Shown here in pieces: positions 7,554 through 40,597 of a DNA stretch of 64,000 bases. The translations under genes and the position numbers were made by a program. This DNA comes from Streptosporangium saharense. Lineage in GTDB: Bacteria; Actinomycetota; Actinomycetes; Streptosporangiales; Streptosporangiaceae. Location: positions 1,302,001-1,366,000 of the forward strand of contig NZ_JACHJP010000002.1 of NCBI RefSeq assembly GCF_014203715.1. Direction: 5' to 3'. A model generated the notes under the pieces. That model saw nothing but the letters and a program-made list of their open reading frames with translations, had not been told where the DNA came from and ran no database searches. Within the stretch, counting starts at the first letter, position 1, and every line of letters starts with the position of its first letter.

Positions 7554-7764
7554 TCCCTCGTCACTCCCCTCGCCGTCGCGCCCCCGTCACACGGGGCGAT
7601 GCCGTCGCGCCCCGGTCACACGGGGCAATCCTGCCACCGCGCACGTGTCGCTCCTACGGCGGCCACCCGCTAACGCTCCCCGACGTCACCCGGCGTTCAC
7701 GGGTCCGCCATGGTCACCCGCCCGCCCGTCAGGGTGTTCCGGCGGTGCGCTACTATTGCCCGCG

Positions 7765-7839
7765 ATGCGTACTGCGTTCTGGTTTTGGTATGGCGACGGA
7801 CCCGTGGGTTGGACCGTTCGCCTCCAGATGCTGCGCTAG
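7765..7839 (+). CDS. Aromatic-rich leader peptide of the DAHP synthase gene
   Basis: A 24-residue open frame beginning MRTAFWFWYG and ending ...WTVRLQMLR. Six of 24 residues are aromatic, five of them consecutive (F5 W6 F7 W8 Y9) and a further Trp at 16. It is followed by a strong terminator-like hairpin and then the first enzyme of the shikimate pathway. This is the arrangement of ribosome-mediated attenuation responding to charged tRNA-Trp/Phe/Tyr. No ribosome site precedes the ATG; TACTAT at 7751-7756 would start the transcript at about the ATG, so the leader may be translated leaderlessly (inference). Confidence 0.8.
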   Translation: MRTAFWFWYGDGPVGWTVRLQMLR

Positions 7840-7856
7840 ACAGCCTGGCGAACGTG

Positions 7857-7891
7857 AAGGCCCCGGGTCCGGACAACGGACCCGGGGCCTT
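7857..7891 (+). terminator. Attenuator hairpin upstream of aroF
   Basis: Perfect 15-bp stem (7857-7871 with 7877-7891) and a GACAA loop, followed by TCGTCTTTC. A competing upstream stem pairs CGTTCGCC (7815-7822, inside the leader frame) with GGCGAACG (7847-7854). The sequence CGGACCC at 7797-7803, in the leader codons just after the aromatic run, is complementary to GGGTCCG at 7865-7871, giving a possible antiterminator. The exact switching scheme is inferred. Confidence 0.75.
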
Positions 7892-7950
7892 TCGTCTTTC
7901 CCGGCTCTTCCACCTGATCGGCGAATCCCCCGGATCAACGAAGGAGAGAA

Positions 7951-8988
7951 ATGGTCATCGTCATGGGCCCCGAGGCGACACAGGGCGACATCGAGGCGAT
8001 CGTGGAGATCATCGGCAGCGCGGGCGGCGACGCCTTCGTCAGCCGTGGCGTCAGCCGTACGATCATCGGCCTCGTCGGGGACGTGGAGCAGTTCGGCACG
8101 CTCAACCTGAAGGGCATGCGCGGGGTCGCCGAGGTGATGAGGGTGACGGCCCCCTACAAGCTCGTCAGCCGGGACAACCACCCCGAGCGCTCCACGGTCA
8201 GGGTCGGCGGGGTGCCGATCGGCCCGGGTCTGGTCACCCTGATCGCGGGCCCGTGCGCGGTCGAGACGCCGCAGCAGACGCTCGACGCCGCGTTGATGGC
8301 CAAGGCCGCGGGGGCGACCCTGCTGCGGGGCGGCGCCTACAAGCCCCGCACCTCCCCCTACGCCTTCCAGGGGCTGGGCGAGGCGGGCCTGCGCATCCTG
8401 GCCGACGTGCGTGAGGAGACCGGGCTGCCCATCGTGACCGAGGTCGTGGACGCCCACGACGTGGAGCTCGTCGCCTCCTACGCGGACATGCTGCAGGTCG
8501 GCACCCGCAACGCGCAGAACTTCGCGCTGCTGCAGGCGGTCGGCGGGATCGGCAAGCCGGTCATGCTCAAGCGCGGCATGAACGCCACCATCGAGGAGTG
8601 GCTGATGGCGGCCGAGTACATCGCCCAGCGCGGCAACCTCGACATCGTGCTGTGCGAACGGGGCATCCGCACCTTCGAGACGGCCACCCGCAACACCCTC
8701 GACGTCTCCGCGGTGCCGATGGCCCAGCGCCTTTCCCACCTGCCGGTCATCATCGACCCGTCCCACTCGGGCGGACGGCGTGACCTGGTGCTCCCGCTGA
8801 CCAGGGCGGCCATCGCCGTCGGCGCGGACGGTGTGATCATCGACGTCCACCCGCAGCCCGAACTGGCCCTGTGTGACGGCCCGCAGGCGCTGGTCCAGGG
8901 GGACCTCGACGAGCTGTCCGAGGTGATGCGCCGCCTGCCTCCGCTGCTCGGCAAGACCGCAACCGGCGACGCCCTCGCCACCGCCTGA
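7951..8988 (+). CDS. aroF: 3-deoxy-7-phosphoheptulonate synthase (DAHP synthase, type I beta)
   Basis: Condenses phosphoenolpyruvate and erythrose 4-phosphate, the first step of aromatic amino acid synthesis. The 345-residue protein has an N-terminal ferredoxin-like regulatory domain (residues 1-70, MVIVMGPEATQGDIEAIVE...) and a TIM barrel with LIAGPCAVE, LLRGGAYKPRTSPYAFQG, QVGTRNAQNF, KPVMLKRGMNATIEEW, LCERGIRTFE and VIIDPSHSGGRRD. This domain layout matches the Thermotoga/Bacillus-type enzymes that are feedback-inhibited through the N-terminal domain. AAGGAGAG precedes the ATG. Transcription is probably controlled by the leader peptide and attenuator directly upstream, and ended by the palindrome at 8997-9026. 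Confidence 0.95.
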   Translation: MVIVMGPEATQGDIEAIVEIIGSAGGDAFVSRGVSRTIIGLVGDVEQFGTLNLKGMRGVAEVMRVTAPYKLVSRDNHPERSTVRVGGVPIGPGLVTLIAGPCAVETPQQTLDAALMAKAAGATLLRGGAYKPRTSPYAFQGLGEAGLRILADVREETGLPIVTEVVDAHDVELVASYADMLQVGTRNAQNFALLQAVGGIGKPVMLKRGMNATIEEWLMAAEYIAQRGNLDIVLCERGIRTFETATRNTLDVSAVPMAQRLSHLPVIIDPSHSGGRRDLVLPLTRAAIAVGADGVIIDVHPQPELALCDGPQALVQGDLDELSEVMRRLPPLLGKTATGDALATA

Positions 8989-9389: not shown

Positions 9390-10592
9390 TCACACCTGCA
9401 GCTTGTACTCCTGCAGGGACCCGGCAAGCTGTACGGCCAGCTCCTCGGCGTCCAGGCGTCGCTCGATCTGCTTCAGATCGGCGATCTTGGCGGCGGTCTC
9501 CGCCCTGCGGGGCGCCAGGAGCGTGCAGCAGTCCTCGTCGGGCAGCTCGGAGATCTGCAGGGTGCCGATCCGGCGGGCCTCCGCCATGATCTCGGTCTTG
9601 TCGAGGCCGATGAGCGGGCGCAGGATCGGCATGTCGACCGCGTCGTCCTGGGCGGTGATGTTCTGCAGCGTCTGGGAGGAGACCTGCCCCAGCGAGTCGC
9701 CGGTGATCAGCGCCCCGGCCCTGAGGCGGCGGGCGACCTCCTCTGCGGTCTTGAGCATCAGGCGCCGCTGGGAGATGACCGCGAGCCGGTCCTGGCCGGA
9801 GGCCTTGATGGACTGCTGGGCCTTGCCGAAGGGCACGACCCACAGCCGGGACCCGCCCTGGAACTTGTCCAGCGCCCTGGCCAGGGCGTACGCCTTGTAG
9901 ATCGACTCCGAGGTGGTGAAGGGGATGCCGGAGAAGTGCAGGAAGTCCACCCGCAGGCCCCGGCGCATCATCCGGTAGGCCGCGACCGGGGAGTCGATGC
10001 CGCCGGACATCAGCACCAGCCCCCTGCCGCTGGTGCCGACAGGAAGGCCGCCCTGGCCCGGCTGCCCGCCGGTGAAGACGAAGATCTCGTCGCGGTCGAC
10101 CTCGATGGAGACCACGAGCTGCGGGTTCTTCAGGTCGACCGGCAGGCCGTAGATGTCGTTCAGCTCGCCGCCGACGGACCGGTCGAGCTGCATCGAGGTC
10201 AGCGGGAAGCGCTTGTCGCGGCGGCGCGAGCGGACCGCGAAGGAGACGCCCCGCCGTACGTCCTCGCGGTCGGCGAGCAGTTCGATGGCCGCCTTGGTGA
10301 CCGCGGCGGGGTCCTTGGCGACCCGCCACGCGCGGTGGATCCAGACCAGGCCGGGCACGTTCGAGACGCGTTCGGCGACCACGTCGGCGCGTTCGACCCC
10401 CGAGCCCTCCGGCAGGAAGAGCGCGATGACCCCGTGGCGCTGCCGCAGGTCCACCTTGAAGTCCAGGTCCTTGACCGAGGCCTTGATGTTGCTCTGCAGG
10501 CGGCGTTCGAAGAGCTCGCGGTTGTTTCCCTTGAGGACGACCTCGCCCAGTTTGAGCAGAACGCAGGGCTCGCCCAAGGCCGACATCGTCAT
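9390..10592 (-). CDS. thiI: tRNA 4-thiouridine synthase ThiI, short form
   Basis: Sulfurtransferase for s4U8 in tRNA and, in some organisms, thiazole synthesis. A ferredoxin-like/THUMP region spans residues about 1-170 (LLKLGEVVLKGNNRELFERRL), followed by the PP-loop domain with LVLMSGGIDSPVAAY, GDSLGQVSSQTLQN, MPILRPLIGLDKTEI and a DEDCCTLLAPR motif holding the conserved catalytic cysteine. The C-terminal rhodanese domain of the enterobacterial enzyme is missing, so sulfur must come from another donor. The ATG at 10590-10592 is chosen because GGAGG lies seven bases upstream; an open frame continues about 40 codons further but lacks any such site. Confidence 0.92.
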   Translation of the reverse strand: MTMSALGEPCVLLKLGEVVLKGNNRELFERRLQSNIKASVKDLDFKVDLRQRHGVIALFLPEGSGVERADVVAERVSNVPGLVWIHRAWRVAKDPAAVTKAAIELLADREDVRRGVSFAVRSRRRDKRFPLTSMQLDRSVGGELNDIYGLPVDLKNPQLVVSIEVDRDEIFVFTGGQPGQGGLPVGTSGRGLVLMSGGIDSPVAAYRMMRRGLRVDFLHFSGIPFTTSESIYKAYALARALDKFQGGSRLWVVPFGKAQQSIKASGQDRLAVISQRRLMLKTAEEVARRLRAGALITGDSLGQVSSQTLQNITAQDDAVDMPILRPLIGLDKTEIMAEARRIGTLQISELPDEDCCTLLAPRRAETAAKIADLKQIERRLDAEELAVQLAGSLQEYKLQV

Positions 10593-10718
10593 GGCGCAAC
10601 CTCCGGTGGAACTTCGAGGGGAAACATGGGTGCACGGCACCGCCGTCACGCGGCGGGAACCCTCGGGACCACGCCACAACGCCAAGTGTCGCGCGTTCCC
10701 CGATAAAGACAACTCACT

Positions 10719-11366
10719 TTAGTCGCCCCCGGGACCGTCGAGCCCCTGCTCGATGGCGTAGCGGATCAGCTGTGCCCGGTTGTGCAGCTGAAGCTTGTTC
10801 AGCGTGTTCTGGACGTGGTTCTGCACGGTTCTGTGCGACAGGACCAGACGCTCGGCGATCTGCCGGTAGGACAGTCCCTTGGCGACCAGGCGGAGCACCT
10901 GCGTCTCCCGCTCGGTCAGGCGGGGACCGTCTGCGGGGACCGGCTGGGCGGCCAGCCTGCGGTACTCCCCTAGCACGAGCCCGGCCAGGCCGGGGGTGAA
11001 CACCGCGTCGCCCTGCGCGGTACGGCGGACCGCGTCCAGGAACTCCTGCCGACTCGCCGATTTCAGCAAATATCCGGATGCGCCTGCCTTGACGGCCTCA
11101 AGCACGTCCTCCTGCTCGCCGCTGGCCGACAGCACCAGGATCCGGGGCTGGGGGTCGTGGGCCGCGAGCCTTCTGGCCACCTCCACCCCGGACAGGTCGG
11201 GCAGCCGCAGGTCGAGGACGACCAGCTCCGGCCTGACCGCGGCCGCGGCCCGAAGGGCCTGCCCTCCCTCGCCTACCGTCGCCACGACCTCGTATCCCGC
11301 CTCGGTGAGGTCCCTGGCCACCCCGTCCCGCCACATCGGGTGGTCGTCAACCACCATCACGCGCAT
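10719..11366 (-). CDS. NarL/FixJ-type response regulator (REC-LuxR HTH)
   Basis: A 215-residue regulator with receiver domain (DDHPMWRDG, phospho-acceptor D52 in VVLDLRLPDLSG, Lys in YLLKSASRQEF) and C-terminal LuxR-type HTH (LTERETQVLRLVAKGLSYRQIAERLVLSHRTVQNHVQNTLNKL). It starts nine bases after the stop of the upstream MacS-type kinase, so the two form an operon and a cognate pair. The targets are unknown. Confidence 0.94.
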   Translation of the reverse strand: MRVMVVDDHPMWRDGVARDLTEAGYEVVATVGEGGQALRAAAAVRPELVVLDLRLPDLSGVEVARRLAAHDPQPRILVLSASGEQEDVLEAVKAGASGYLLKSASRQEFLDAVRRTAQGDAVFTPGLAGLVLGEYRRLAAQPVPADGPRLTERETQVLRLVAKGLSYRQIAERLVLSHRTVQNHVQNTLNKLQLHNRAQLIRYAIEQGLDGPGGD

Positions 11367-11375
11367 CCGCCCACC

Positions 11376-12488
11376 TTAGACGGGAACGGACATCTCGATC
11401 TCGGTCCCCTCGCCCGGTGACGACATGATCGTGACCGTGCCGCCGAGGTCGGCGAGGCGGCCCCTGATGGACTGGGCGACGCCGAGCCGCCCGGCCGCCG
11501 CGGCCTCCTCAAGGCGTCCCTCGGGGATGCCCGGCCCCTCGTCCCTGACGGTGACGGTGACCAGGCCGTCGTCGCTCTCGGCGAAGACCCAGGCGGGGGC
11601 GTGCGGGCCGCAGTGCCCGGCCACGTTGTCCAGGGCGGCGCCGACCGCGGCGGCCAACTGCCGGGCGACGGCCTCGGGCAGGGTCAGCGGGGTCGCGGGG
11701 ACGGAGACGGTCACCGAGGCCGAGCCGTACGCCTGGAGCAGGGCGCGCAGGTCGGCGACGCCGTCGCGGGGCGGCTCTGGGCGGAGCCTGACCAGCTCGC
11801 GCAGCGCGGCCTCCTGCTCGCCCGCGAGCCTGCCCAGCTCGGCCGCCTCTCCCCCGATCTCCTGGCCCCTACGCTGGACCAGCGCGAGCACCTGCAGCAC
11901 CGAGTCGTGGATGTCCCTGGCGATCCTGTCGCGCTCGCGTCCGGCCGCCTCGATCTCGATGGCCCGTTGCAGGCGCGCCTCGGCCCGTCTGGCGAGCTGG
12001 GCGACGTGGCCGACCAGGACCCCGGCGAGGAAGAGCAGCACGCTTCCGTTGATCGGCAGGTTCTCGAATCCGACGCCCGGTCCGCCCAGGTCGTGCAGCC
12101 ACAGGTCGGCCATCGAGACGACCAGCGCGGCCACGGCCCCGGCGCGGCGCCCGCCGTACACGCCCCACGCCAGCACCGCGCCGCCCATCCAGGTGCCGGT
12201 GACCGGCAGGCTGCCCGTCCGGTAGACGCCCTGGACCAACGGGGTGGCCAGCAGGCAGACGAGCGTCACGAGCATGTCGACGGCCAGGAGCGTACGGCCG
12301 CGCAGCTCGGGCGAGGAGTAGGCGTAGGTCGTGGCCGCGGTCCACAGCGCCATGAGGCCGATCACCAGCCAGCCGGTCATCGGGTGGGCGTAACCGCCCG
12401 CGCGCAGCAGCAGGACGATCGCGTAGACCAGGGACGCGACGCGGAAGACCGCGATGACCCGCCAGAACGGACCCTCGATCCCCGTCAC
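11376..12488 (-). CDS. MacS-family sensor histidine kinase
   Basis: Membrane sensor kinase of 370 residues. The N-terminal 160 residues contain about five hydrophobic helices, corresponding to the membrane domain of MacS-like kinases (DUF5931 type). Then comes a short dimerisation helix and the phosphoacceptor motif RDRIARDIHDSVLQV with His at residue 194, and a HATPase domain near the C-terminus (TVRDEGPGIPEGRLEEAAAAGRLGVAQSI). MacS/MacR pairs in Streptomyces influence morphology and antibiotic production; the role in this strain is inferred only from family. It pairs with the NarL-type regulator downstream. Confidence 0.9.
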   Translation of the reverse strand: MTGIEGPFWRVIAVFRVASLVYAIVLLLRAGGYAHPMTGWLVIGLMALWTAATTYAYSSPELRGRTLLAVDMLVTLVCLLATPLVQGVYRTGSLPVTGTWMGGAVLAWGVYGGRRAGAVAALVVSMADLWLHDLGGPGVGFENLPINGSVLLFLAGVLVGHVAQLARRAEARLQRAIEIEAAGRERDRIARDIHDSVLQVLALVQRRGQEIGGEAAELGRLAGEQEAALRELVRLRPEPPRDGVADLRALLQAYGSASVTVSVPATPLTLPEAVARQLAAAVGAALDNVAGHCGPHAPAWVFAESDDGLVTVTVRDEGPGIPEGRLEEAAAAGRLGVAQSIRGRLADLGGTVTIMSSPGEGTEIEMSVPV

Positions 12489-30682: not shown

Positions 30683-31089
30683 GCCCGTTATTCCCGTGAC
30701 CGGGGAAAGACGCCTTTCCTGATGCCTTCGGGACGGTCCGCACGCCGTCACGAATGAGAGCCGGACCACCGGGGCACCCGTCACGACCTTGGAAAACGAC
30801 CCGGCAACAGACCGGGAATCGGCTGCCCACAACGCCTTTCTGGCCCGGAGGAAATCCGCTCCCCGATTCGGGAAAATCCGCTTACCGGAAAGCATTCCTT
30901 CCCGACGGGAAGCGTCACCCACGAGCCTTCCAGGAAGCTTTTCCGTCACCACGGTGACTACTCACGGTCACCATTGACCAGCCGAAAGTAAGGCAAAAAG
31001 CTGCTTTTACCCCTCTTGCGCCAGCCGGATTCGGCGATCTATGGTTCTCCCCGAAAACGACAACCGTTTTCACTGTCGAAAGGAGCACC
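30683..31089. other. Non-coding region upstream of the RiPP operon
   Basis: This 407-bp region has no convincing gene and is less GC-rich than its surroundings. It contains several palindromes: CTTCCC-GAC-GGGAAG (30898-30912), GGTCA-N4-TGACC (30966-30979), AAAAGC-T-GCTTTT (30996-31008) and the promoter-proximal repeat at 31053-31071. The density of such elements suggests layered regulation of the operon. Confidence 0.55.
31016..31072 (+). promoter_or_regulatory. Candidate promoter and Zur-like operator of the RiPP operon
   Basis: TTGCGC (31016-31021) and TATGGT (31040-31045) make a -35/-10 pair with 18-bp spacing, predicting a start near 31052. Directly over the start lies a perfect inverted repeat GAAAACG-N5-CGTTTTC (31053-31071). 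Overlapping it, CGACAAC-C-GTTTTCA (31058-31072) matches the 7-1-7 layout of actinobacterial Zur boxes (TGAAAAY-N-RTTTTCA) with two mismatches in the left arm. Metal-dependent repression is an inference from this and the importer downstream. Confidence 0.5.
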
Positions 31090-31281
31090 ATGAACAAGGA
31101 TCTCGGCTTCGAGGAGCTGACCTCCGCGGCGGCGCTGCCCGCCCTGCAGGGGCCGGGCACCAACGCCCTCGTCCACACCCCGTTCGGCTTCGAGGAGCTG
31201 GCTCCCGCCACGGCGCTGCCCGCTCTCCAGGGGCCGGGCACCAACGCCCTCGTCCACACCCCCTTCGCCTGGAACTCCTAG
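31090..31281 (+). CDS. RiPP precursor peptide with two tandem 27-residue units
   Basis: A 63-residue peptide: MNKDL, two 27-residue units (residues 6-32 and 33-59) identical at 24 positions, then AWNS. Each unit starts GFEEL, continues through ALPALQ, and ends GPGTNALVHTPF. GFEEL...ALPALQ looks like a recognition segment and the GPGTNALVHTPF stretch like a core with two Thr and one His; there is no Cys. An AAAGGAG ribosome site precedes the ATG. It heads an operon with an RRE/E1-like protein and two YcaO enzymes, which convert Ser/Thr/Cys to azolines or modify backbone amides. The two-core layout recalls multi-core precursors such as cyanobactins. I recognise no named family. Confidence 0.85.
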   Translation: MNKDLGFEELTSAAALPALQGPGTNALVHTPFGFEELAPATALPALQGPGTNALVHTPFAWNS

Positions 31282-31290
31282 TTCCAGAAA

Positions 31291-31321
31291 CGGACGGCCC
31301 GCTCCCAGTGCGGGCCGTCCG
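31291..31321 (+). terminator. Hairpin between precursor and modification genes
   Basis: Perfect 12-bp GC-rich stem (31291-31302 with 31310-31321) with the loop TCCCAGT, ten bases after the precursor stop. It probably acts as a partial terminator or mRNA stabiliser, giving more precursor than enzyme mRNA. A smaller repeat GGAAC-N5-GTTCC spans the stop codon at 31271-31285. Confidence 0.7.
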
Positions 31322-31367
31322 CCCATCCCATCCTTCCCCCTTTGCGAGTCGCGGAGAAGAACAGCCC

Positions 31368-32123
31368 ATGGAGTCGATCGCCCCCGGCCACCACCTGTAC
31401 GTCGGCCCGGACGGGACGTGGCGCTCGTGCGACGAGAACGAGCGGTTCACCCGCCTGACCGGCCGGGCCGACCTGCTCGAACGCATGCGTGAGCAGGCCT
31501 ACCTCGGCGGGAACGCCCCCGACCTCGAACCGCTGGTCACCGCCCTGCGCGAGCGGGGCGTGCTCACCGACCCCTCCCCCGGCGGCGGCGAGCCGCTGCG
31601 GGTGTGCGTGCGCGGGGAAGGCCCGGTGGCCGCCGAGACCGTACGGCTGCTCGCCGGCACGGGGACCGCGCTCGCCGTGGACGACCCGGCCACGGCCGAC
31701 GCGGTGGTCGAGTGCGCGGGCTGGCTCCCCGACGGGCACTGGCTGCGCCTCGACGACGACGGGGCCGTCAGGCACCGCTGCCACGTCGAGGGCCGCAGGC
31801 TGGTCGTCGGCCCGATGACCGTGCCCGGCCGTACCGCCTCCTACCGGGACCTGCGGGGACGCAGGCTCGCCGCGGCGGCGCTGCCCGACGAGCTGGCCGG
31901 GCTGTGGACCTACCTCGACGAGGGTGTGGCCGGTACGGTGCCGCTCCCGCCGGTGCCGTGGCCGAATCCCGGCGCGGTCGCGGTCGCCGCGGGCCTGCTG
32001 GTCAACGACCTGCTGACCTGGTGGGCCGGTGACCTGCCCGCGACCTCGGGGCTCCAGCTCGTCGTCGATCCCGCCTCGGGACGGGTCGAGCGGCACCCGG
32101 TGCTGCCGCTGCCGGTCCGATGA
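31368..32123 (+). CDS. RRE/E1-like partner protein (TOMM cyclodehydratase C-like)
   Basis: A 251-residue protein. Residues 1-75 (APGHHLYVGPDGTWRSCDENERFTRLTGRADLLERMREQAYLGG...LVTALRERGVL) have the pattern of the winged-helix RiPP recognition element at the start of cyclodehydratase C proteins. The remainder resembles a shrunken ThiF/E1-like domain (PLRVCVRGEGPVAAETVRLLAGTG, ADAVVECAGWLPDGHW, VGPMTVPG) without the zinc-binding CxxC pairs or an ATP-binding GxGxxG of active E1 enzymes. By analogy it binds the precursor leader and presents it to the YcaO proteins. It is coupled to the next gene by an ATGA overlap. Confidence 0.7.
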   Translation: MESIAPGHHLYVGPDGTWRSCDENERFTRLTGRADLLERMREQAYLGGNAPDLEPLVTALRERGVLTDPSPGGGEPLRVCVRGEGPVAAETVRLLAGTGTALAVDDPATADAVVECAGWLPDGHWLRLDDDGAVRHRCHVEGRRLVVGPMTVPGRTASYRDLRGRRLAAAALPDELAGLWTYLDEGVAGTVPLPPVPWPNPGAVAVAAGLLVNDLLTWWAGDLPATSGLQLVVDPASGRVERHPVLPLPVR

Positions 32124-33925
32124 ACCGGTTCAACCTGCGGCTTCCCGGCTGGGACGGCACCCCGCTCGCCCTCGACGTCCACCTGCCGGAACCGTCCTTG
32201 TGGCCCGTCCCCACGGTCGTCACCCGCACGCCGTACGGGCGGGGCCGTCACCTGGCGGAGGGGGCGGGGTGGGTCAGGCGCGGCTTCGGCTACGTCGTCC
32301 AGGACGTGCGGGGCCGCTATGACTCCGACGGCGTCTGGGAGTGCTACCGCAACGAGCGCGGGGACGGCGCCGCCCTGGCCGACTGGATCGCCGCCCAGGA
32401 GTGGAGCGACGGACGGCTGGTCGGATACGGCGGCTCCTACGGCGGATACACCGCCTGGGCACTGGCCGTCGAACGCCCCGAGCTGGTGCCCGCGGTGGTG
32501 AGCATGGGCCCGTCCATGGCGCTGCACCGCACCAAGTTCGAGGACGGCGTGCTGCGGCTGGCCGAGCACGCGGCCTGGTGGCTCGAACGGGCGGACAGCC
32601 GTACCAGCAGAGACGGCCTCGCCGCGCTCCTGCTCGGCGGGGAGGGCGGCGGCGCGCTGGCGCATCTGCCGGTGACCGATCTGCCCGAGCGGCTCGGGGC
32701 ACGCCTGCCGGGCTGGGCCGGGGTCGTCCTGCGGGGTCCCGGCCACCGCCCAGCCGAGGAGATCACCGAGGAGGAGCTGGCCGCGCTGCCCACGGCGGGG
32801 CTGCACGTCGGCGGCTGGTACGACCTGCTGGCCGACGAGACCCTCCTGCACTGGCGGACGGTCGGCGCCGCCCGCACCCCGCGCCCGCCGCAGCGGCTGA
32901 TCATGGGACCGTGGGGCCACGACCTGGCCTTCACCGGGCGGACCCGGCACATCGACCGGGAGCACGGCCCCCAGGCCCTGCTCGACCTGGGCGCGGCACA
33001 GGTCACCTGGATCCGCGCCTGCCTGGCGGGCGAGGATCCCGGTCCCGACCTGGTCCTTCCCGTCGGCGGAACCGCCTGGAGCCCCTGGCCGACCACGACC
33101 CGCGAACACGTGCTGCACGCCCACCCGGAAGGGCGGCCCGACGAGGGGACCGTGACCGGCCTGTTCGGCAAGCTTGAAGAGGTGCCCGGGGACGGGCCTG
33201 GCTTCGGAGGGACCACACCCGACGAGGTCCCCGGGGGCGGTTCTCCCTTCGCAGGACTCAAAGCGTTTCCCGCGAATGAGCTGTTCGGCGGGAGGCTCGA
33301 CGAGGTTCCCGGGGACGGGCCCTGTGGGGTTTTCGTGTACGACCCGGCCGACCCGTGCCCGTCCCTGGCTCCCGGCACCGACCGGCGCTTCCTCGACGGG
33401 CGGCCCGACGTCCTGCGGTTCAGCACGCCGCCGCTGACCGCCCCGCTGTCGTTCACCTCGGCCGCCGTCCACCTTGACGTCACCGCCTCGGCCCCCGGCG
33501 CCGACTGGATCGTACGGCTCGCGGAGCACACCGCGGACGGCCGGGTGTTCGAGCTGGCCAGGGGCAGGGCCGCGGGGTCGGGGCGCCTGGCGCTCAGCCC
33601 GGTCTGGGCGAGCCTGCCCGTGGGGTCCCGGCTCCGGCTGGAGATCACCGGCAGCGACTTCCCCCGCCTGGCCCGCTCCCTCGGCACCGGGGCCGACCGC
33701 TACACGACCACCGCGACCGCCCCCGTCCGCCAACGGGTCCGCACCGCCCGCCTGGTCCTGGAGGTCCCGGAGACTCCGGATGCCCTGGCGGCCCCGGGAG
33801 CCGAAAAGCCCCAGAGAGGCTCGGCGGGCCAGGAAGACCCGACATCCCTGCCAGGCAGGAAAGCCCCAATACCCCTGCAAAACCCGAAAAATCCGGGAGA
33901 CCAGGAAGGCATGGAGAGCCCGTGA
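32120..33925 (+). CDS. CocE/NonD-family S15 serine peptidase (X-Pro-type)
   Basis: A 601-residue alpha/beta hydrolase of the S15/CocE family. The nucleophile elbow is GYGGSYGGYT (Ser106), with FGYVVQDVRGRYDSDG upstream, the acid in GWYDLLADE-type sequence, and a catalytic His in MGPWGHDLAF (about residue 268). The C-terminal jelly-roll domain is present. Unusual is a roughly 58-residue insert (residues about 347-404) with three copies of a D/E-E-V-P-G-D/G-G motif, and a Pro-rich 45-residue tail. Members cleave after X-Pro or hydrolyse esters; the precursor core begins GPG and contains PF, so maturation proteolysis is plausible (inference). Both gene junctions overlap. Confidence 0.85.
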   Translation: MNRFNLRLPGWDGTPLALDVHLPEPSLWPVPTVVTRTPYGRGRHLAEGAGWVRRGFGYVVQDVRGRYDSDGVWECYRNERGDGAALADWIAAQEWSDGRLVGYGGSYGGYTAWALAVERPELVPAVVSMGPSMALHRTKFEDGVLRLAEHAAWWLERADSRTSRDGLAALLLGGEGGGALAHLPVTDLPERLGARLPGWAGVVLRGPGHRPAEEITEEELAALPTAGLHVGGWYDLLADETLLHWRTVGAARTPRPPQRLIMGPWGHDLAFTGRTRHIDREHGPQALLDLGAAQVTWIRACLAGEDPGPDLVLPVGGTAWSPWPTTTREHVLHAHPEGRPDEGTVTGLFGKLEEVPGDGPGFGGTTPDEVPGGGSPFAGLKAFPANELFGGRLDEVPGDGPCGVFVYDPADPCPSLAPGTDRRFLDGRPDVLRFSTPPLTAPLSFTSAAVHLDVTASAPGADWIVRLAEHTADGRVFELARGRAAGSGRLALSPVWASLPVGSRLRLEITGSDFPRLARSLGTGADRYTTTATAPVRQRVRTARLVLEVPETPDALAAPGAEKPQRGSAGQEDPTSLPGRKAPIPLQNPKNPGDQEGMESP

Positions 33926-35262
33926 ACAGCCCGGAGGACCTGCTGGTCGACTCCCGTACCGGCGTGCTGACCGCGCTGGAACCCCAGCCCCGCCGTCCCG
34001 GTCTGCCCCGCTGGTGGACCGGGTACGGCGCGGCCGTCGCCGACACCCGGAGGTTCGCCCCCTGGACCGCCGACCGGCACGGGTTCGGCGCGACCCTCGG
34101 CGACCCCTCGCACGCCCGCGCCGCGGCGCTCGGTGAGGCCGTCGAACGCTACTGCGGCAACGCCGTCCCCGCCGGGCTCACGGTCTCCTCCTGGCGTGAC
34201 CTGACCGAGGCGGCCCTGGACCCGGAGACGGTCCCGCTGTACTCGGCCGCCCAGTACCGCGAGCCCGGTTTCCCCTTCGTCCCGTTCACCCGGGACCTGC
34301 CGGTCGCCTGGACTCCGGCGCGGGACATGCGTGACGGCTCCCGGGTGCTGGTTCCCGCGTCCCTGGTCTGGCTCGACTACTTCCACGGTCCCCGTGCCGC
34401 CGAGCCGCCGACCCACGCGCTGCCGTACTCGGGCATCGCGACCGGGCGGAGCCGGGATCACGCGGAGCGGTCAGCCCTTGAGGAGCTGTTCGAGCGGGAC
34501 GCCACCACGATCTGGTGGTCGAGCGGGGCGGCCTGCGAGGCCGTGGCCGACCCGGAGACGGTCACCGCGGCCCTCGGCGGTGGGGAACAGGAACCACGGA
34601 TCCGGTTGCTGGCCGTACCGTCGCCGTTCGGGGTGCCGGTGATGGCGGCCTTCCTTGAGGATCTCGACGGCGGGATCGTGGCGTTCGGCGGCGCCTGCCG
34701 GTCCACCCCCCGTGAGGCCGCGGCCAAGGCGCTGGTCGAGGCCTTCGGCCTGTACTCCCTGACGCTCCAGCTCGCCGACCCCGCGGGCGCGGTGTGGCAG
34801 GCCGTGGCCGCCGGGGTGCTCGAAGAGCACGTGTTCCGGCCCTACCGGGCCGACCGTTCCTACCGGGACGCCTTCCGCCCCGACTACCGGGACCTGACCG
34901 ACCTGCCCGCCATCGCGCAGCTCTATCTCGACCCGCGCATGCGGGGTGAGCCCCTGGAGCGGCTGCGCGCGGCCCCCGGTCCGGCCCTGGACGACCTGCC
35001 CTCGGCCGACCCGGGGAGCTACCTCGACCGCCTTGCCGGGGCCGGGCTCACCGCCTACAGCGTGGACCTGACCACCCCCGACGTGGCCGAGGCGGGGCTG
35101 TGCGTGGTGCGGGTCCTGGTGCCCGGCCTGGTGGGAAACGCCCCACCGGCCTTCCCGCTGCGCGGCGGAAGGCGCCTGTACGAGGTGCCGAAGGCCCTCG
35201 GCCTCACCTCCCACGTCCTGGACGAGGACGACCTGTTCCCCCACCCTCTCCCCCTGGCATGA
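33922..35262 (+). CDS. YcaO-family cyclodehydratase/amide-activating protein 1
   Basis: A 446-residue YcaO protein, which uses ATP to activate backbone amides. ATP/Mg-binding regions: GEAVERYCGN (71-80), EELFERDATTIWW (Glu187/188 to Asp193), and a third acidic block around AAKALVEAFGL. The C-terminus ends in a Pro-rich segment (FPHPLPLA), a feature of azoline-forming YcaO proteins. It is 35-40% similar by eye to the next gene, sharing RYCGN, LYSxAQ, PGFPxxPFTRDLPV and the C-terminal VxxPDVxxAGLxVVRVxVPG, so the two arose by duplication. The GTG start overlaps the S15 stop. Confidence 0.9.
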   Translation: MNSPEDLLVDSRTGVLTALEPQPRRPGLPRWWTGYGAAVADTRRFAPWTADRHGFGATLGDPSHARAAALGEAVERYCGNAVPAGLTVSSWRDLTEAALDPETVPLYSAAQYREPGFPFVPFTRDLPVAWTPARDMRDGSRVLVPASLVWLDYFHGPRAAEPPTHALPYSGIATGRSRDHAERSALEELFERDATTIWWSSGAACEAVADPETVTAALGGGEQEPRIRLLAVPSPFGVPVMAAFLEDLDGGIVAFGGACRSTPREAAAKALVEAFGLYSLTLQLADPAGAVWQAVAAGVLEEHVFRPYRADRSYRDAFRPDYRDLTDLPAIAQLYLDPRMRGEPLERLRAAPGPALDDLPSADPGSYLDRLAGAGLTAYSVDLTTPDVAEAGLCVVRVLVPGLVGNAPPAFPLRGGRRLYEVPKALGLTSHVLDEDDLFPHPLPLA

Positions 35263-35263
35263 C

Positions 35264-36598
35264 ATGACGACCATCCTCACCTCCCCCGAAGCGGGGCCGT
35301 ACTCCTCGCTGCTCGACCCCCGCACCGGGATCGTCCGCGCCCTGGTCCGCTCCGCGACCCCCGCCCAGCTGCCCGTCTCGTTCGAGCTGGTCACCGCCGT
35401 GCTCTCGGACACCACGAGGTTCGGCCCGTGGCCCTCGGACTCGGCGGGCGCCGGATACGCCTTCGCCGACCCGGAGGCCGCCAGGGGCGCGGCGCTCGGC
35501 GAGGCCGCTGAGCGCTACTGCGGCAACCTCGTCCCTCCCCGCCTTGTCCTGGCCTCCCACGCCGACCTGACCGCCCAGGGCGCCCGCGCCCTCGACCCCG
35601 CCGACCTGGCGCTGTACTCCCCCGCCCAGCACGCCGTCCCCGGTTTCCCGCTGGCGCCGTTCACCCGTGACCTGCCGGTCGAGTGGACGGAGGCGGTCGA
35701 TCTGCTCGACGGCCGGGGGACGCTCGTCCCGGCCGGGCTGGTGTGGGTGTCGTACTTCTCCGCCGACGTCGCCCCGCCGACGCCCCGCGTCAACCCGGTC
35801 ATCCAGGCCGGGCTGGCGGCCGGGCCGACCCGCGAGTACGCCGTCTGGGGCGCCCTGGGTGAGATCGCCGAGCGCGACGCCATGACGCTGGCCTGGCACG
35901 GGCGGGCCGGGCTGCGCGCCCTGACCCCGCCGTCCTGGCTGGCCGCCTTCGTCCCCGGGCCGCTGCGGCGGCTGCACGTGCGCTTCCTCGGCTTCCCCAC
36001 CGCGACCGGCCTGCACGTGACCGGCGCGCTGGTCCGCGACCGGGAGACCGGCCACCTCACCCTCGGCATGGGGGTACGGCGCGACGCCCAGGAGGCGATG
36101 GTCAAGGCCTACGGCGAGGCGTTGCAGTTGCAGCTCTTCGTCGCCGGGCTCGACGACCCCGCCGGGCCGTACTGTCAGGTGGCCGCCGACCCGCGCAGTC
36201 CCCTGAAGCCGTGGCGGGCCGACCGGGCCTACGGCTCGTCCTACCGGTCCGACCTGGCCGACGTCGTGGACTACGGCTGCCACCTGCAGTTGTTCCTCGA
36301 CCCCGCCGTCCAGGAGGAGTTCGAGGAGGAACTCGCCGAGGCGCTGACCGAGCACGTGCCCGCCCGCGCGGTGCCACCGCCGAAGGACGCCCGTGAGCTG
36401 GCCGTACGGCTGGGCCGTCAGGCGCTGGTCGCCGAGGTGACCACCCCGGACGTGCGGGGGGCGGGCCTGCGCGTGGTGCGGGTCGTGGTGCCCGGCACCT
36501 ACTCCAACACCGCGGCCGGACTGCCGTTCCTCGGCGGCACCCGGCTGGCGGAGACCCTGGGCCGCCGCCCCCGCCGCCCCCTGCCTCTCCCCCACTGA
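35264..36598 (+). CDS. YcaO-family cyclodehydratase/amide-activating protein 2
   Basis: A 444-residue YcaO protein beginning one base after its paralogue's stop. ATP-site motifs are GEAAERYCGN (79-88), GEIAERDAMTLAW (Glu200 to Asp205) and AMVKAYGEALQLQL. The C-terminus ends RRPLPLPH, close to the PxPxP tail seen in cyclodehydratases. Since both paralogues keep their acidic ATP-binding residues, both could be catalytic, for example one for each Thr in the core or as a heteromer; two YcaO proteins also occur in bottromycin loci. No FMN dehydrogenase is present, so azolines would stay reduced. Confidence 0.9.
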   Translation: MTTILTSPEAGPYSSLLDPRTGIVRALVRSATPAQLPVSFELVTAVLSDTTRFGPWPSDSAGAGYAFADPEAARGAALGEAAERYCGNLVPPRLVLASHADLTAQGARALDPADLALYSPAQHAVPGFPLAPFTRDLPVEWTEAVDLLDGRGTLVPAGLVWVSYFSADVAPPTPRVNPVIQAGLAAGPTREYAVWGALGEIAERDAMTLAWHGRAGLRALTPPSWLAAFVPGPLRRLHVRFLGFPTATGLHVTGALVRDRETGHLTLGMGVRRDAQEAMVKAYGEALQLQLFVAGLDDPAGPYCQVAADPRSPLKPWRADRAYGSSYRSDLADVVDYGCHLQLFLDPAVQEEFEEELAEALTEHVPARAVPPPKDARELAVRLGRQALVAEVTTPDVRGAGLRVVRVVVPGTYSNTAAGLPFLGGTRLAETLGRRPRRPLPLPH

Positions 36599-36610
36599 AG
36601 AGAGTCCTCC

Positions 36611-37648
36611 TTGACCTCCTCCCGTCTCATCTCCGGGCGGCGCTACCCGCTGGCGGTGGCGTTGCTGCTGGTCGCGGTCCCGCTCGCGATGGTGGCCGCC
36701 GTCAGCCTCGGCGCCGTCGACCTGCCCGCCGCGGACGTGTGGCACACGGTCGTCGCCCACCTGACGACCGGGCGGCGTCCCGTGGACGTCAGCGGCATCG
36801 ACGACGAGATCATCTGGAACTCCCGGGCCCCGAGGACCGTCCTGGCCCTCGTCGCCGGGGCCGGGCTCGCCGTCGCCGGGGCCGTGCTGCAGGCGGTGGT
36901 GCGCAACCCGCTGGCCGACCCCTACGTCCTGGGGGTCGCCTCCGGGGCGTCGCTGGCCGCGGTCGCCGTCATCACCCTGGGCGGCATCGTGGGACTCGGC
37001 GTGCCGGGGGCGGCCTTCGTGGGGGCGTGCGCCACGCTCGCCCTGGTGCTGCTGCTCGGCAGCAGGCGCGGCACCCTGGCGCCTACCCGGCTGATCCTGG
37101 CCGGGGTCGCCCTGTCCTACCTGCTGCAGGGGGCGACCGGCTACCTCCAGCTCCGCGCCCAGCCGGGGCAGCTCTCCGGCATCCTGTTCTGGCTGCTCGG
37201 CTCGGTCTCTGGCGCGGGCTGGGACGACCTGGCCGTGCCGTGCGCGGTGGTCGTGGCCTGTACGGCGTGGCTGACGTTCCAGGGCAAGCGGCTCAACGCG
37301 ATGCTGCTCGGCGACGAGACGGCCGCCATGCTCGGCGTCGCCGTACACCGGTTCCGGCTGACGCTGCTCGCCGTGTCGGCGCTGCTGACGGCTGCCGTCA
37401 TCTCGGTCGCCGGGGGCATCGCGTTCGTCGGGCTGATCGTGCCGCACGCCGTACGGCTGCTCGCCGGTCCCGACCACCGCCGTGCCCTGCCGCTGATCGC
37501 GCTGGGCGGCGGCCTGTTCCTGGTCCTCGCCGACCTGGCCGCCCGCACCCTGTCGCCGCCGCTCGAACTTCCGCTCGGCATCCTGACCGCCGCGATCGGC
37601 GCGCCGTTCTTCCTGTGGCTGCTGCGCCGGGAAGGGCCGGTGTCCTGA
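36611..37648 (+). CDS. FecCD-family ABC transporter permease
   Basis: A 345-residue permease of the BtuC/FecCD type, used for siderophores, haem and cobalamin. About ten membrane helices are visible, and the family motifs SRAPRTVLALVAGAGLAVAGAVLQAVVRNPLADPYVLGVASGA and GGIAFVGLIVPHAVRLLAGPDHRRALPL are intact. The TTG start follows AGAGAG-rich sequence 12 bases after the YcaO stop. The stop overlaps the ATPase start (TGATG). It would homodimerise, since only one permease gene is present. Confidence 0.92.
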   Translation: MTSSRLISGRRYPLAVALLLVAVPLAMVAAVSLGAVDLPAADVWHTVVAHLTTGRRPVDVSGIDDEIIWNSRAPRTVLALVAGAGLAVAGAVLQAVVRNPLADPYVLGVASGASLAAVAVITLGGIVGLGVPGAAFVGACATLALVLLLGSRRGTLAPTRLILAGVALSYLLQGATGYLQLRAQPGQLSGILFWLLGSVSGAGWDDLAVPCAVVVACTAWLTFQGKRLNAMLLGDETAAMLGVAVHRFRLTLLAVSALLTAAVISVAGGIAFVGLIVPHAVRLLAGPDHRRALPLIALGGGLFLVLADLAARTLSPPLELPLGILTAAIGAPFFLWLLRREGPVS

Positions 37649-38427
37649 TGCGGGTGGAGATCACGGACCTGGACCTGCCGCTCGGCGGGGTCGCGGGGGT
37701 CGGGCTGCGGGTCGAGCCCGGCGAGTTCGTCGGGCTCATCGGCCCGAACGGCAGCGGCAAGTCCACGCTGCTGCGCGCGCTGTACCGGGCGCTGCGTCCG
37801 GACGACGGGGTGGTGCTGGTCGGCGGGGACGACGTGTGGCGGAGCCTGACGGCCCGCGAGTCGGCGGGGCGGATCTCCGTCGTGGCCCAGCACGGCGGGG
37901 ACGGCTTCGACTTCACCGTCGCCGAGCTCGTGGCCACCGGCCGCACCCCGCACCGGACCTCCCCCTCGGCCGACCGGGAGATCGTCGCCGCGGCCCTCGA
38001 ACGGGTCGGGATGACCGGGATGGCCGAGCGCCTGTACTCGACGCTGTCCGGAGGCGAGCGGCAGCGGGCGCTGCTGGCCCGCGCCGTGGCCCAGCGGGGC
38101 GCCCTGCTGGTGCTCGACGAGCCGACCAACCATCTCGACGTCAACGCGCAGTTCGAGCTGCTCGGCCTGGTCCGCTCCCTGGGCGTGACGACGCTGGCGG
38201 CGTTGCACGAGCTGAACCTCGCCGCCGCCTACTGCGACCGGCTCTACGTGCTTGAGGCGGGCCGGATCGTCGCCCACGGATCCCCCGGCGACGTGCTGAC
38301 CCCGGCCCTGCTCGCCGAGGTGTTCGGGGTCCGCGCCCACGTGGGCGTCAACCCGCTCACCGGGCGGCCGAACCTCACCTTCGCGCCGCTGAAGGACACC
38401 TTCGAAGAAACTGGAGACCCCCGATGA
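37648..38427 (+). CDS. FecE/BtuD-type ABC transporter ATP-binding protein
   Basis: A 259-residue ABC ATPase. Walker A GPNGSGKST, Q-loop VVAQHGGDGFDFTVAELVATGRTPH (the metallophore-importer pattern), signature LSGGERQRALLARAV, Walker B LLVLDEPTNHLD and H-loop ALHELNLAAAYCDRLYVLEAG are intact. It overlaps the permease by one base and the binding protein gene by four, so the importer is translated as a block. Confidence 0.94.
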   Translation: MRVEITDLDLPLGGVAGVGLRVEPGEFVGLIGPNGSGKSTLLRALYRALRPDDGVVLVGGDDVWRSLTARESAGRISVVAQHGGDGFDFTVAELVATGRTPHRTSPSADREIVAAALERVGMTGMAERLYSTLSGGERQRALLARAVAQRGALLVLDEPTNHLDVNAQFELLGLVRSLGVTTLAALHELNLAAAYCDRLYVLEAGRIVAHGSPGDVLTPALLAEVFGVRAHVGVNPLTGRPNLTFAPLKDTFEETGDPR

Positions 38428-39410
38428 GAACGCCACGAGCGGCCCTGTGCGCCCTGACCCTCCTCGCCCTGACGGCGGGCTGCGGCGCCGGTCCCACCAC
38501 GGCCGCCGCCCCCGCCGCCCCGGGCGGTGAGGGCGCCTTCCCCGCCCAGGTCGTCAACTGCGGGCGGAGCGTTCAGGTGGACAGCCTGCCGAAGCGGATC
38601 GTGTCGTTCTTCCCGTCCAACACCGAGCTGCTGCTCGCCCTGGGGGTCAAGGACCGGCTCGCGGGCCAGGTGTGGGCCGACCAGTCGCCGCCGAAGCCCG
38701 CCTACGCCGCCGACTACGCCGGGGTCAAGGTCCTGTCCGGGGGCGAGGTGTCGAGGGAGACGCTGCTGGCCGCCCGTCCCGACTTCATCCTGGCCGACGG
38801 GGAGTACAACTTCGACGGCAAGAAGCTGCCCACCATCGCCGAACTGGCCGAGCTGGGCGTGCCCGTCTACGTGGACGCCGCGTTCTGCCCGGGAACCACC
38901 GGCTCGGCGACCCTCGCCGACGTCGGACGCGACCTCGACGCCCTCGGCGGGCTGCTCGGTGTGCCCGGCCAGGCGGCTGGCGCCAAACGCGACGTCACCA
39001 GGGCCCTCGACGGCCTGCGCCGCCGCCTCGACGGACGCGCCCCGGTGCGCACCGCCATGGTGCAGGTCTTCGACAGGCAGCTGTACGGCCTGGCGGGCGG
39101 CCTCTACTCCGACATCCTGCGCGTCGCGGGCGGCGCCAACGTGCTCGACGGGCAGGTCCCGACGGGCAAGAACTTCGACGTCGTCTCCGTCGAGGCCGTC
39201 GCCAAGGCCGACCCGGAGACGATCGTCTACCACTACACCGACGAGGCCGACCGCGCCTCGGCCGAGAAGTGGCTGCGTGAACACCTGGGCCAGACGAAGG
39301 CGGTCAGGAACGGCCGTCTGGTCGCCACGCCCGCCGCCGACTACTCGGGGCTGCGCGCGGTCGACGGCGTCCAGACGATCGCCCGCGCCCTGCACCCGGA
39401 CGTGTTCTGA
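38424..39410 (+). CDS. Metallophore-type ABC transporter substrate-binding lipoprotein
   Basis: A 328-residue lipoprotein: signal ending LTAGCGAG, lipid-modified Cys at about residue 20. The body is a class III (BtuF/FepB-like) binding protein with PKRIVSFFPSNTELLLALGVKDRLAGQ, ETLLAARPDFILADG, GVPVYVDAAF and NFDVVSVEAVAKADPETIVYHYT. This class binds metal chelates. Its place in the RiPP operon suggests the modified peptide, or its metal complex, is the ligand (inference). It overlaps the next start by one base. Confidence 0.9.
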   Translation: MRTPRAALCALTLLALTAGCGAGPTTAAAPAAPGGEGAFPAQVVNCGRSVQVDSLPKRIVSFFPSNTELLLALGVKDRLAGQVWADQSPPKPAYAADYAGVKVLSGGEVSRETLLAARPDFILADGEYNFDGKKLPTIAELAELGVPVYVDAAFCPGTTGSATLADVGRDLDALGGLLGVPGQAAGAKRDVTRALDGLRRRLDGRAPVRTAMVQVFDRQLYGLAGGLYSDILRVAGGANVLDGQVPTGKNFDVVSVEAVAKADPETIVYHYTDEADRASAEKWLREHLGQTKAVRNGRLVATPAADYSGLRAVDGVQTIARALHPDVF

Positions 39411-40597
39411 TGCGCCGTTACCTCGCCGCCCGGATCACCTCGTGGGCCGGGTCGTCGATCACCCTCGTCGCGTTACCGGTGCTGCTCTACCAGCGCACCG
39501 GCGACGCCGCCCTGACGGGCCTGCTCACCGCCATGGAGGCGGTCCCCTACCTGCTGCTGGGCCTGCCCGCGGGGGCGCTCGCCGACCGGTGGGACCGCCG
39601 CCGCGTGCTGACCCTCACCAGCCTGCTCAGCGCGCTGCTCGTGGCGAGCGTCCCGCTGGCCGCCGCGCTCGGGCTGCTCACCACGCCGCACCTGTTCGTC
39701 GTGGCGGCGGCGACCTCCTCGTCCTTCGTGTTCTTCGACGCCGCAGCGTTCGGCGCGCTGCCCGCGCTGGTCGGGCGGGAGGGGGTGGCCAGGGCGACCG
39801 GCGTCCTGATGACCTGGAGCACCCTGGTCTCACTCGTCGGCCCGGCCCTGGCGGGGGTGCTGGTGGCCGCGACCGGCGCGGCCCCGGCGATGGGGATCGA
39901 CGCGCTGAGCTACGTGGCCGCCGCGCTGCTGCTGGCCCGGCTGCCGCTGGCCAAGCCGGAGCCCCGGCCCCGCCGTGACCTGCGGGCCGAGATCCTCGAC
40001 GGTGTCCGCTACATCCGCGCCCACCCGGTGGTCGGGCCGCTGACCTTCCTCGGGGTCGGCAACAGCCTCGCCGAGGGGGCCGTGATGGGGCTGCTGGTCG
40101 TCGTGGCGGTCGAGCGGCTCGGCCTCGGGTCCGCCGATCCGGCGATCGGCCTGCTGTTCGCCGCGACGGCGGTCGGCGCCATGGCGGCCGGGCTGGCCGT
40201 GCCCCGGCTGCGGCTGCGGTTCAGCACGCCCGCGATCTCCCTCACCTCGCTGACGGCCGTGGGGATCCTGCTGGTGGTGTGGGCCCTCACCGAGCACCTG
40301 GTCGCGGGGCTGGTGGTGCTGGCCGTCTGGCAGGCGGCCAACAGCCTGGTCAGTCTGAACGGCATCATCGAACGGCAGGAGCGGACCCCCGACCACCTCC
40401 AGGGCCGGGTCAACACCACCGCCAGGATGATCGCCTGGGGTGGGCAGCCCGCGGGAGCCGCCCTCGCCGGGCTCCTGGCCGAGCTGACCTCTCCCAGGAC
40501 GGCTCTGCTGGCGACGGCGGCGGCCGTACTGCTGTCGCTGCTGCTGCCTCCGGCGCGTGCCCTGGCCCGGCTGACCCCCTCCGCGTCCCGGGACTGA
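39410..40597 (+). CDS. MFS transporter, probable exporter of the RiPP product
   Basis: A 395-residue, twelve-helix MFS protein of the EntS/MFS_3 group (ITSWAGSSITLVALPVLLYQRTGDAALTGLL, AGALADRWDRRRVLTLTSL, RAEILDGVRYIRAHPVVGPLTFLGVGN). Siderophore exporters such as EntS belong here. The last gene of the operon, it starts at the preceding stop. Together with the importer it gives both halves of a secrete-and-recapture cycle. Confidence 0.9.
   Translation: MRRYLAARITSWAGSSITLVALPVLLYQRTGDAALTGLLTAMEAVPYLLLGLPAGALADRWDRRRVLTLTSLLSALLVASVPLAAALGLLTTPHLFVVAAATSSSFVFFDAAAFGALPALVGREGVARATGVLMTWSTLVSLVGPALAGVLVAATGAAPAMGIDALSYVAAALLLARLPLAKPEPRPRRDLRAEILDGVRYIRAHPVVGPLTFLGVGNSLAEGAVMGLLVVVAVERLGLGSADPAIGLLFAATAVGAMAAGLAVPRLRLRFSTPAISLTSLTAVGILLVVWALTEHLVAGLVVLAVWQAANSLVSLNGIIERQERTPDHLQGRVNTTARMIAWGGQPAGAALAGLLAELTSPRTALLATAAAVLLSLLLPPARALARLTPSASRD

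Follow-up and report, generated by a model that had tools for sequence, protein, structure and literature searches.

A streptamidine-related RiPP operon with two YcaO proteins and a predicted Zur-type operator in Streptosporangium saharense

Introduction

What peptide does a nine-gene operon of Streptosporangium saharense make, and when would the cell need it? The operon lies on the + strand at 31090-40597 of a 64,000-nucleotide stretch of DNA (NCBI RefSeq assembly GCF_014203715.1, contig NZ_JACHJP010000002.1, positions 1,302,001 to 1,366,000), referred to below as the window, and combines genes for a streptamidine-type ribosomally synthesized and post-translationally modified peptide (RiPP) with those for an importer and an exporter. 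An earlier reading of the sequence by a model, hereafter the original prediction, had taken it for a RiPP locus of no named class whose product is a secreted metal scavenger. Here we report that the locus is a new member of the streptamidine-related family, in its motif-B, two-YcaO branch, and that a predicted Zur-type operator precedes its precursor gene. With moderate confidence, we read it as a Zur-controlled operon whose short peptides are exported and then re-imported, most likely carrying zinc. The streptamidine family and its two-YcaO branch were already known; what is new is a regulatory finding, the Zur-type boxes.

Results

The operon belongs to the streptamidine-related family

The precursor matched NF040715, "streptamidine-related RiPP repeat protein", in two stretches with 114 bits against a cut-off of 45 (NCBIfam). 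This match, together with eight partner genes, bears out the call of a RiPP operon, and it rules out a nameless class, since precursor and gene set are those of the streptamidine-related family (NF040715; PMC8442711). Clusters of the streptamidine type have been reported in more than 230 species and fall into two main groups by motif; Russell et al. 2021 characterized the product of motif A only and described the two-YcaO, mostly motif B branch without characterizing it (PMC8442711). The window falls in the latter branch, with two YcaO proteins encoded alongside AmiB- and AmiC-like genes and a precursor above the NF040715 cut-off that carries a repeated ALV-containing motif. It does not encode streptamidine in the strict sense: NF040714 gave 13.3 bits against a cut-off of 40, the window precursor has no HLSATH core, and no dehydrogenase family matched the eight operon proteins scanned, AmiE not having been sought among genes outside the operon. 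A bottromycin-like identity was rejected, as no bottromycin model matched the precursor and an RRE/E1-like partner protein is present. The features of the locus, in window positions, are:

31055..31075, no strand: predicted Zur-type operator AAACGACAACCGTTTTCACTG, with its 7-1-7 core CGACAACCGTTTTCA at 31058-31072, 32 bases before the precursor start
31090..31281, +: precursor peptide, AmiA-like, motif B, 63 residues, two repeats (NF040715 match)
31105..31185, +: repeat unit 1, GFEELTSAAALPALQGPGTNALVHTPF, with probable core ALQGPG at 31141-31158 and follower NALVHTPF at 31162-31185 (core placed by alignment)
31186..31266, +: repeat unit 2, GFEELAPATALPALQGPGTNALVHTPF, with probable core ALQGPG at 31222-31239 and follower NALVHTPF at 31243-31266 (core placed by alignment)
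31291..31321, +: RNA hairpin of 12 bp between the precursor and AmiB genes (region -37.6 kcal/mol, z -4.5)
31368..32123, +: AmiB-like, RRE/E1-like precursor-binding partner, 251 residues (predicted fold closest to the heterocyclases LynD and TruD)
32120..33925, +: AmiC-like hydrolase of the peptidase S15/CocE family, 601 residues (Pfam/NCBIfam)
33922..35262, +: YcaO 1, probable AmiD counterpart by tree, 446 residues (Pfam/NCBIfam, tree)
35264..36598, +: YcaO 2, probably the extra paralogue of two-YcaO loci, 444 residues (Pfam/NCBIfam, tree)
36611..37648, +: FecCD-family permease, 345 residues (Pfam/NCBIfam)
37648..38427, +: ATP-binding cassette (ABC) ATPase of the importer, about 259 residues (Pfam/NCBIfam; the listed open reading frame (ORF) starts upstream at 36739)
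38424..39410, +: substrate-binding lipoprotein, 328 residues (Pfam; siderophore/heme/B12-binding fold)
39410..40597, +: EntS-like exporter of the major facilitator superfamily (MFS), 395 residues (Pfam/NCBIfam)

Pfam and NCBIfam scans and reading of the ORFs thus found every part of the RiPP, import and export machinery where the original prediction had placed it. Both YcaO proteins exceeded the TIGR03604 cut-off in the NCBIfam scan, and alignments showed that both keep the stretches GEA-ERYC, ERD and K--EA, which we take to be the YcaO nucleotide-binding motifs. The RRE/E1-like protein matched TIGR03882 only below threshold and had no match in the Pfam scan; its predicted fold (mean pLDDT 92) found the cyanobactin heterocyclases LynD and TruD as top structural matches. 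Fold prediction has likewise given AmiB of the streptamidine cluster a TruD-like structure (PMC8442711). By analogy with the streptamidine cluster (PMC8442711), the S15/CocE hydrolase is proposed to be the leader-removing peptidase. Cys20 of the lipoprotein is invariant in all 22 aligned sequences.

From the AmiB gene onward, neighboring genes overlap or lie at most 12 bases apart, and the 86-base gap between the precursor and AmiB genes contains the strong hairpin at 31291-31321. The hairpin possibly acts as a partial terminator or RNA stabilizer and, standing after the precursor gene, may keep precursor mRNA in excess.

A Zur-type operator is shared with znuA in the window's genome

When the upstream regions of the first 12 motif-B loci fetched were compared by eye, a common palindrome was seen just before the precursor. 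Published actinobacterial Zur operators include the 7-1-7 consensus TGAAAATGATTTTCA of S. coelicolor and TAATGATAACGGTTATCATTT of C. glutamicum (PMC2823685). The window box agrees with the S. coelicolor consensus at 10 of 14 positions, which places it among Zur-type operators, and an extra GAAAACG half-site adjoins it on the left. The window's genome has a single ZnuA-family gene (PF01297), whose box, TTTTGACAACCATTTTCATTTAC, has GACAACC[A/G]TTTTCA in common with the window box.

The pattern GANAACCRTTTTCA was found exactly three times in the 8.5 Mb genome, where composition predicts about 0.03 matches and a reversed-pattern control gave none. The sites stand before this operon, before znuA and, as two boxes, before a second AmiB-like gene (C1:32544). 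Because the window and znuA sites were used to derive the pattern, its independent successes are the third match and those in other genomes. Allowing one mismatch gave six sites, including L085, C12:234811 and C13:19359. An earlier pattern, GAAAACNGTTTTC, gave seven sites with one mismatch allowed; no known Zur gene was recognized in the ORFs around the other six, which were read without a family search. The palindromic pattern TGANAANNNTTNTCA gave two sites, at znuA and at the start of a permease-like gene (C1:744404), and did not match the window box.

The second AmiB-like gene lies on the same contig outside the window (L088:5519-6686) and encodes 287 residues. Its product aligned with the window AmiB profile (hhalign, 99.2%) and shares 47% identity, over residues 63-282, with AmiB from a motif-A locus. 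The four YcaO matches of the genome are all away from this gene, making it an orphan RiPP partner protein with Zur-type boxes, and the locus is kept at 81% in Streptosporangium carneum (G006).

Zur-type boxes are conserved across the family

A genome scan with the YcaO 2 alignment yielded 77 loci from the best 80 of 226 relatives. Thirty of these (L090-L117, L128 and L137), each with two YcaO genes best matched by YcaO 1 and YcaO 2, form the motif-B set; L118, whose contig is cut inside the precursor, was left out, loci on short contigs were kept, and several loci come from genomes fetched earlier. We scored 27 upstream regions, those of the window and 26 of the 30 loci, against the S. coelicolor Zur consensus. 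L101-L104 were omitted because a regular expression missed their precursors, and L103 is a 3.5 kb contig that has no such region; the others carry the boxes CAACGACAATCATATTCAACA (L101), ACATGGAAATGGTTTCCATGT (L102) and CAACGACAATCATGTTCAACA (L104).

A site with at least 9 of 14 matches was present in 26 of the 27 regions, and 24 reached at least 10, compared with 1.8% of random windows. The mean best match was 10.5, compared with 7.1 in about 4000 random windows, and 41 permuted palindromes averaged 7.8, the highest at 9.5. In 25 regions the top site lay 32-45 bases before the start codon. The two exceptions are L099, where no site was found, and L117, which has its top site (10/14) 188 bases from the start and scores 9 at the usual place (CGGAAATGGTTTCCG); counted at the usual place, 23 rather than 24 regions reach 10.

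Motif-A loci were represented by eight of the 12 genomes with a motif-A match, four of the eight having the exact HLSATH core, plus L150 and L160. Nine of these 10 loci reached 10/14, compared with 3.8% of random windows, and none of 40 control palindromes scored as high. In the group 3 loci, eight of nine reached 11 (random windows, 4.7%), L131 being the exception, and no score above 10 was found in 12 YcaO loci outside the family, over as much as 3.5 kb. A further box stands before the importer genes in eight of 16 loci scanned (L055, L102, L105, L108-L110, L114 and L115).

A third precursor class of about 31 residues (e.g., MKVKKLKVQARNAAVHSSNHATVAPAKTAWR) was observed in L119, L121, L123, L126, L127, L138 and L144. 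These loci have two YcaO proteins, AmiB, a Fec-type importer and Zur-type boxes upstream; no NCBIfam model matched the two precursors tested.

A ZnuA-family gene (PF01297) is present in all 15 relatives' genomes reached through motif-B loci. Scored over 20 positions, the boxes before the precursors agree with znuA boxes at 14.3 if both come from the same genome and at 12.9 if they do not. This likeness was matched by eight of 10000 permutations, and whole-genome shared ancestry contributes to it. This comparison covered the window's genome and 14 of the 15, with L111 dropped and the best-scoring box taken where there were several znuA genes. As far as sequence can speak, these results support zinc control of the operon.

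Other regulators were also considered. An IdeR/DmdR consensus showed no enrichment (none of 27 regions above the 99th percentile, mean 0.505 vs 0.485), and iron control through IdeR/DmdR was therefore rejected. Neither the window nor the seven of the 77 related loci that were scanned gave an Rfam match, so that they show no cobalamin riboswitch; cobalamin import was set aside on this ground.

The gene set is rare and conserved, and the YcaO proteins form two groups

Matches to NF040715 are rare: six of 341 genomes of the family and eight of 394 drawn from the class were positive, the window's own genome being counted in both. The 12 other positive genomes all have matches to the eight further genes, two of which look interrupted in L058. 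The original prediction had suggested looking for precursor homologues near paired YcaO and FecCD genes; in the YcaO 2 scan, all eight non-precursor genes, importer and exporter included, stood together in 27 of the 30 motif-B loci, the incomplete ones being L097 and L103, on short contigs, and L099. Because of this co-occurrence and the 114-bit precursor match, we do not regard the locus as a product of chance.

In L058, from the same genus as a Frankia locus, the interrupted matches are those of YcaO 2 and the S15 hydrolase (7130-8424 and 9951-11457), possibly through decay or an assembly error.

A tree of 90 YcaO rows was built after matches under about 330 residues or with stops had been dropped; it was rooted at the midpoint for drawing and carries a long-branch warning. 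L058, in which a frame change interrupts YcaO 2, was left out of two alignments. YcaO 1 (30 rows) and YcaO 2 (30 rows) each formed one supported group. A larger supported group takes in YcaO 1 along with the first YcaO proteins of motif-A loci, Paenibacillus and others, and leaves out YcaO 2. Accordingly, the counterpart of AmiD is probably YcaO 1, with YcaO 2 an added paralogue.

Outside Actinomycetota, streptamidine-like precursors with the His-rich cores HTNSHNHALVENPF and DPHHHALVHNPF were observed in two metagenome-assembled genomes (MAGs) of Acidobacteriota (L124 and L125), where there are two YcaO proteins, and in Paenibacillus (L161 and L163).

The precursor repeats a probable core and follower

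The two 27-residue units of the precursor were confirmed, and the whole peptide reads MNKDL, unit 1, unit 2 and AWNS. The units are identical at 73 of 81 nucleotides and differ by four silent codon changes and three residue changes, all three in the leader part; the 12-residue GPGTNALVHTPF is the same protein sequence in both, with one silent codon difference. The core of streptamidine is HLSATH (PMC8442711), and streptamidine-type precursors read QLA-HLSATH-SNALVENPF. An alignment anchored on NALV probably places ALQGPG of the window precursor at the core position and NALVHTPF at that of the follower.

Conservation was counted over 57 units from 27 motif-B loci. No variation was seen at the positions of A, Q, T (the Thr before NALV), ALV and PF. 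The residue after ALV is H in 46 units, D in eight and Q in three, and the next is N in 39, T in 11 and S in seven. Precursors carry one to five repeats, with four and five found in Acrocarpospora (L092 and L091, respectively); Russell et al. report one to three (PMC8442711). In Rhodococcoides fascians (L104), which does not contribute to the 57 units, NSIVHNPF replaces NALVHNPF in both repeats, breaking the otherwise common ALV.

Discussion

The data presented above suggest the following course of events. At low zinc, Zur would leave its operator and the whole operon would be transcribed, so that precursor, enzymes, exporter and importer would be made together. AmiB would present the precursor to YcaO 1 and to the additional YcaO 2, each repeat having a leader, core and NALVHTPF follower of its own, and with several repeats one precursor would give more copies of an identical core. 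The S15 hydrolase would free the N-termini for backbone cyclization to an amidine or azoline; for streptamidine, it has been argued that an N-terminal amidine requires an open N-terminus (PMC8442711). The EntS-like protein would export the short peptides, and the FecCD/BtuF-type importer would take them back, most likely with zinc. Family membership, operon layout, gene-set conservation and the Zur-type boxes were established here by sequence, and AmiB, AmiC and AmiD are given the roles published for a relative; what we infer is the binding of Zur, the binding of zinc, re-import and the function of YcaO 2, the second and third of these from the control and the transporters. On this scheme the product would be a zincophore.

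The conserved boxes and the co-occurring importer and exporter thus lend real support to the metal role in the original prediction, with zinc most likely the metal. The ligands it proposed are weak. A role in metal import had already been proposed by Russell et al. from the Fec-type genes (PMC8442711).

Several observations weigh against a zincophore. Purified streptamidine bound neither zinc nor six other metals, an amiD mutant had no phenotype under metal starvation, and deletion of the importer genes abolished streptamidine production, a result that does not follow from a role in uptake alone (PMC8442711); these published assays speak against simple zinc binding by streptamidine itself. Across the 57 units, the motif-B cores as placed are free of Cys and His, and 11 units have D or Q instead of the follower His. 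The listed matches of the lipoprotein bind iron-siderophores, heme and B12, and none of those listed is a zinc-specific relative. No Zur-type box was found in L124 and L125, and L099, a Pseudonocardiales MAG with one repeat, has neither box nor Fec importer in 19.6 kb, the two being absent together. As to the boxes, two of the 41 permuted palindromes also reach 10 in the window's own region. The best znuA site scores at least 11/14 in eight of the 15 genomes, 9 in five and 8 in L108, with none in L111, and 14% of random 500-base windows reach 9. Lastly, a Fur-like consensus was enriched before the precursors (mean 0.634 vs 0.473; Zur, 0.751 vs 0.511), and each consensus exceeded its own 99th percentile in four of 27 regions. 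This comparison alone does not tell Zur from Fur; it is the znuA box of the same genomes that, at the level of sequence, singles out Zur.

Some of these points would suit an operon controlled by Zur whose peptide is not a zincophore and acts as a signal, a weapon in zinc starvation or part of a zinc-sparing metabolism, the importer returning the peptide itself or another cofactor. The failure of streptamidine to bind metal, the His-free cores and the need for the importer in production all favor this explanation, as does the suggestion of signaling or development by the discoverers of streptamidine (PMC8442711). However, streptamidine has shown no antibacterial or antifungal activity (PMC8442711), and the exporter and FecCD-type importer form a conserved pair. 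Such a pair is the usual layout of metallophore loci. We consider this explanation unlikely, though it survives better than the other alternatives.

A Cys-free azoline metallophore, as first proposed, would bind metal through the Thr residues of GPGTNALVHTPF, turned into methyloxazolines, and the imidazole of its His. YcaO proteins with an RRE/E1-like partner are an azoline-forming pair (PMC8442711), and the Thr before NALV never varies, but NALVHTPF aligns as the follower and the known relative is an amidine (PMC8442711). Moreover, the proposed ligand residues are mostly not conserved, because, besides the changes at His, 46 of the 57 units have N or S where HTP has its Thr; azoline ligands from HTPF were set aside on account of this variation. 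We regard this chemistry as improbable; it overlaps in part with the preferred zincophore reading, both being metallophores, and the likelihoods expressed here do not add up to a whole.

Least probable is that another Fur-family protein reads the palindrome and that the product scavenges iron, copper or cobalt. In its favor, iron complexes, heme or B12 are what most importers and lipoproteins of these families handle, and the Fur-like consensus is enriched. Against it, the window box shares its GACAACC[A/G]TTTTCA with the znuA box of the same genome, boxes before the precursors follow those of znuA from lineage to lineage, the IdeR/DmdR consensus shows no enrichment, and the loci examined lack a cobalamin riboswitch.

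Returning to Zur control and a peptide that carries zinc, we tentatively extend this reading, at slightly less than even chances, to the streptamidine superfamily. Motif A, motif B and the third, VHSSNHAT-type class might together be a Zur-controlled ribosomal system of zinc acquisition, the first RiPP zincophores, in which case streptamidine as isolated would be a piece of the true ligand or the form it takes when zinc is plentiful.

The role of streptamidine-type peptides was left unknown by their discoverers after metal and antimicrobial assays failed (PMC8442711). A conserved Zur-type operator indicates in which condition these clusters should be switched on and which metal deserves testing. 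It also suggests that peptides of this widespread kind are of use when zinc is scarce, and it makes the open question directly testable. Growth with ample zinc is one possible reason for the earlier negative assays. Cover by the ordinary zinc importer is another, since a ZnuA-family protein is encoded in the window's genome and in those of all 15 relatives. If the peptides do carry zinc, they are ribosomal zincophores. In the open-access literature we found no report of a ribosomal peptide that is linked to Zur or acts as a zincophore, and the word Zur does not occur in the main text of Russell et al. (PMC8442711).

Comparison with known systems

Coelibactin and [S,S]-ethylenediaminedisuccinate (EDDS), unlike the product considered here, are not ribosomal peptides. 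Their loci resemble this one as actinobacterial metabolite loci linked to Zur sites (PMC6103462, PMC12161575), and they differ from it in that zinc binding by the peptide of this locus is a prediction. Bottromycin clusters are alike in having two YcaO proteins and amidine chemistry, but their YcaO proteins work without a partner protein (PMC8442711). Closer is streptamidine itself (motif A, S. albidoflavus; NF040714), with which the locus shares AmiB, AmiC and AmiD homologues, an ALV..PF follower, a Fec-type importer and the Zur-type boxes found in motif-A-type loci. As described, streptamidine differs in its one YcaO protein, its HLSATH core, its essential dehydrogenase AmiE and its ABC exporters AmiT1/T2 (PMC8442711).

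The closest known systems are the two-YcaO streptamidine-related RiPPs (PMC8442711; NF040715), which have the same precursor family, repeats, two YcaO proteins, AmiC- and AmiD-like genes and Fec-type importer, and we found no essential difference between them and this locus in the part of the description cited. An MFS exporter accompanies the importer in the 27 complete loci here. Beyond the published description of the two-YcaO branch, so far as it is cited here, the present analysis adds the Zur-type boxes, precursors with up to five repeats, and a second AmiB-like gene with Zur-type boxes elsewhere in the genome.

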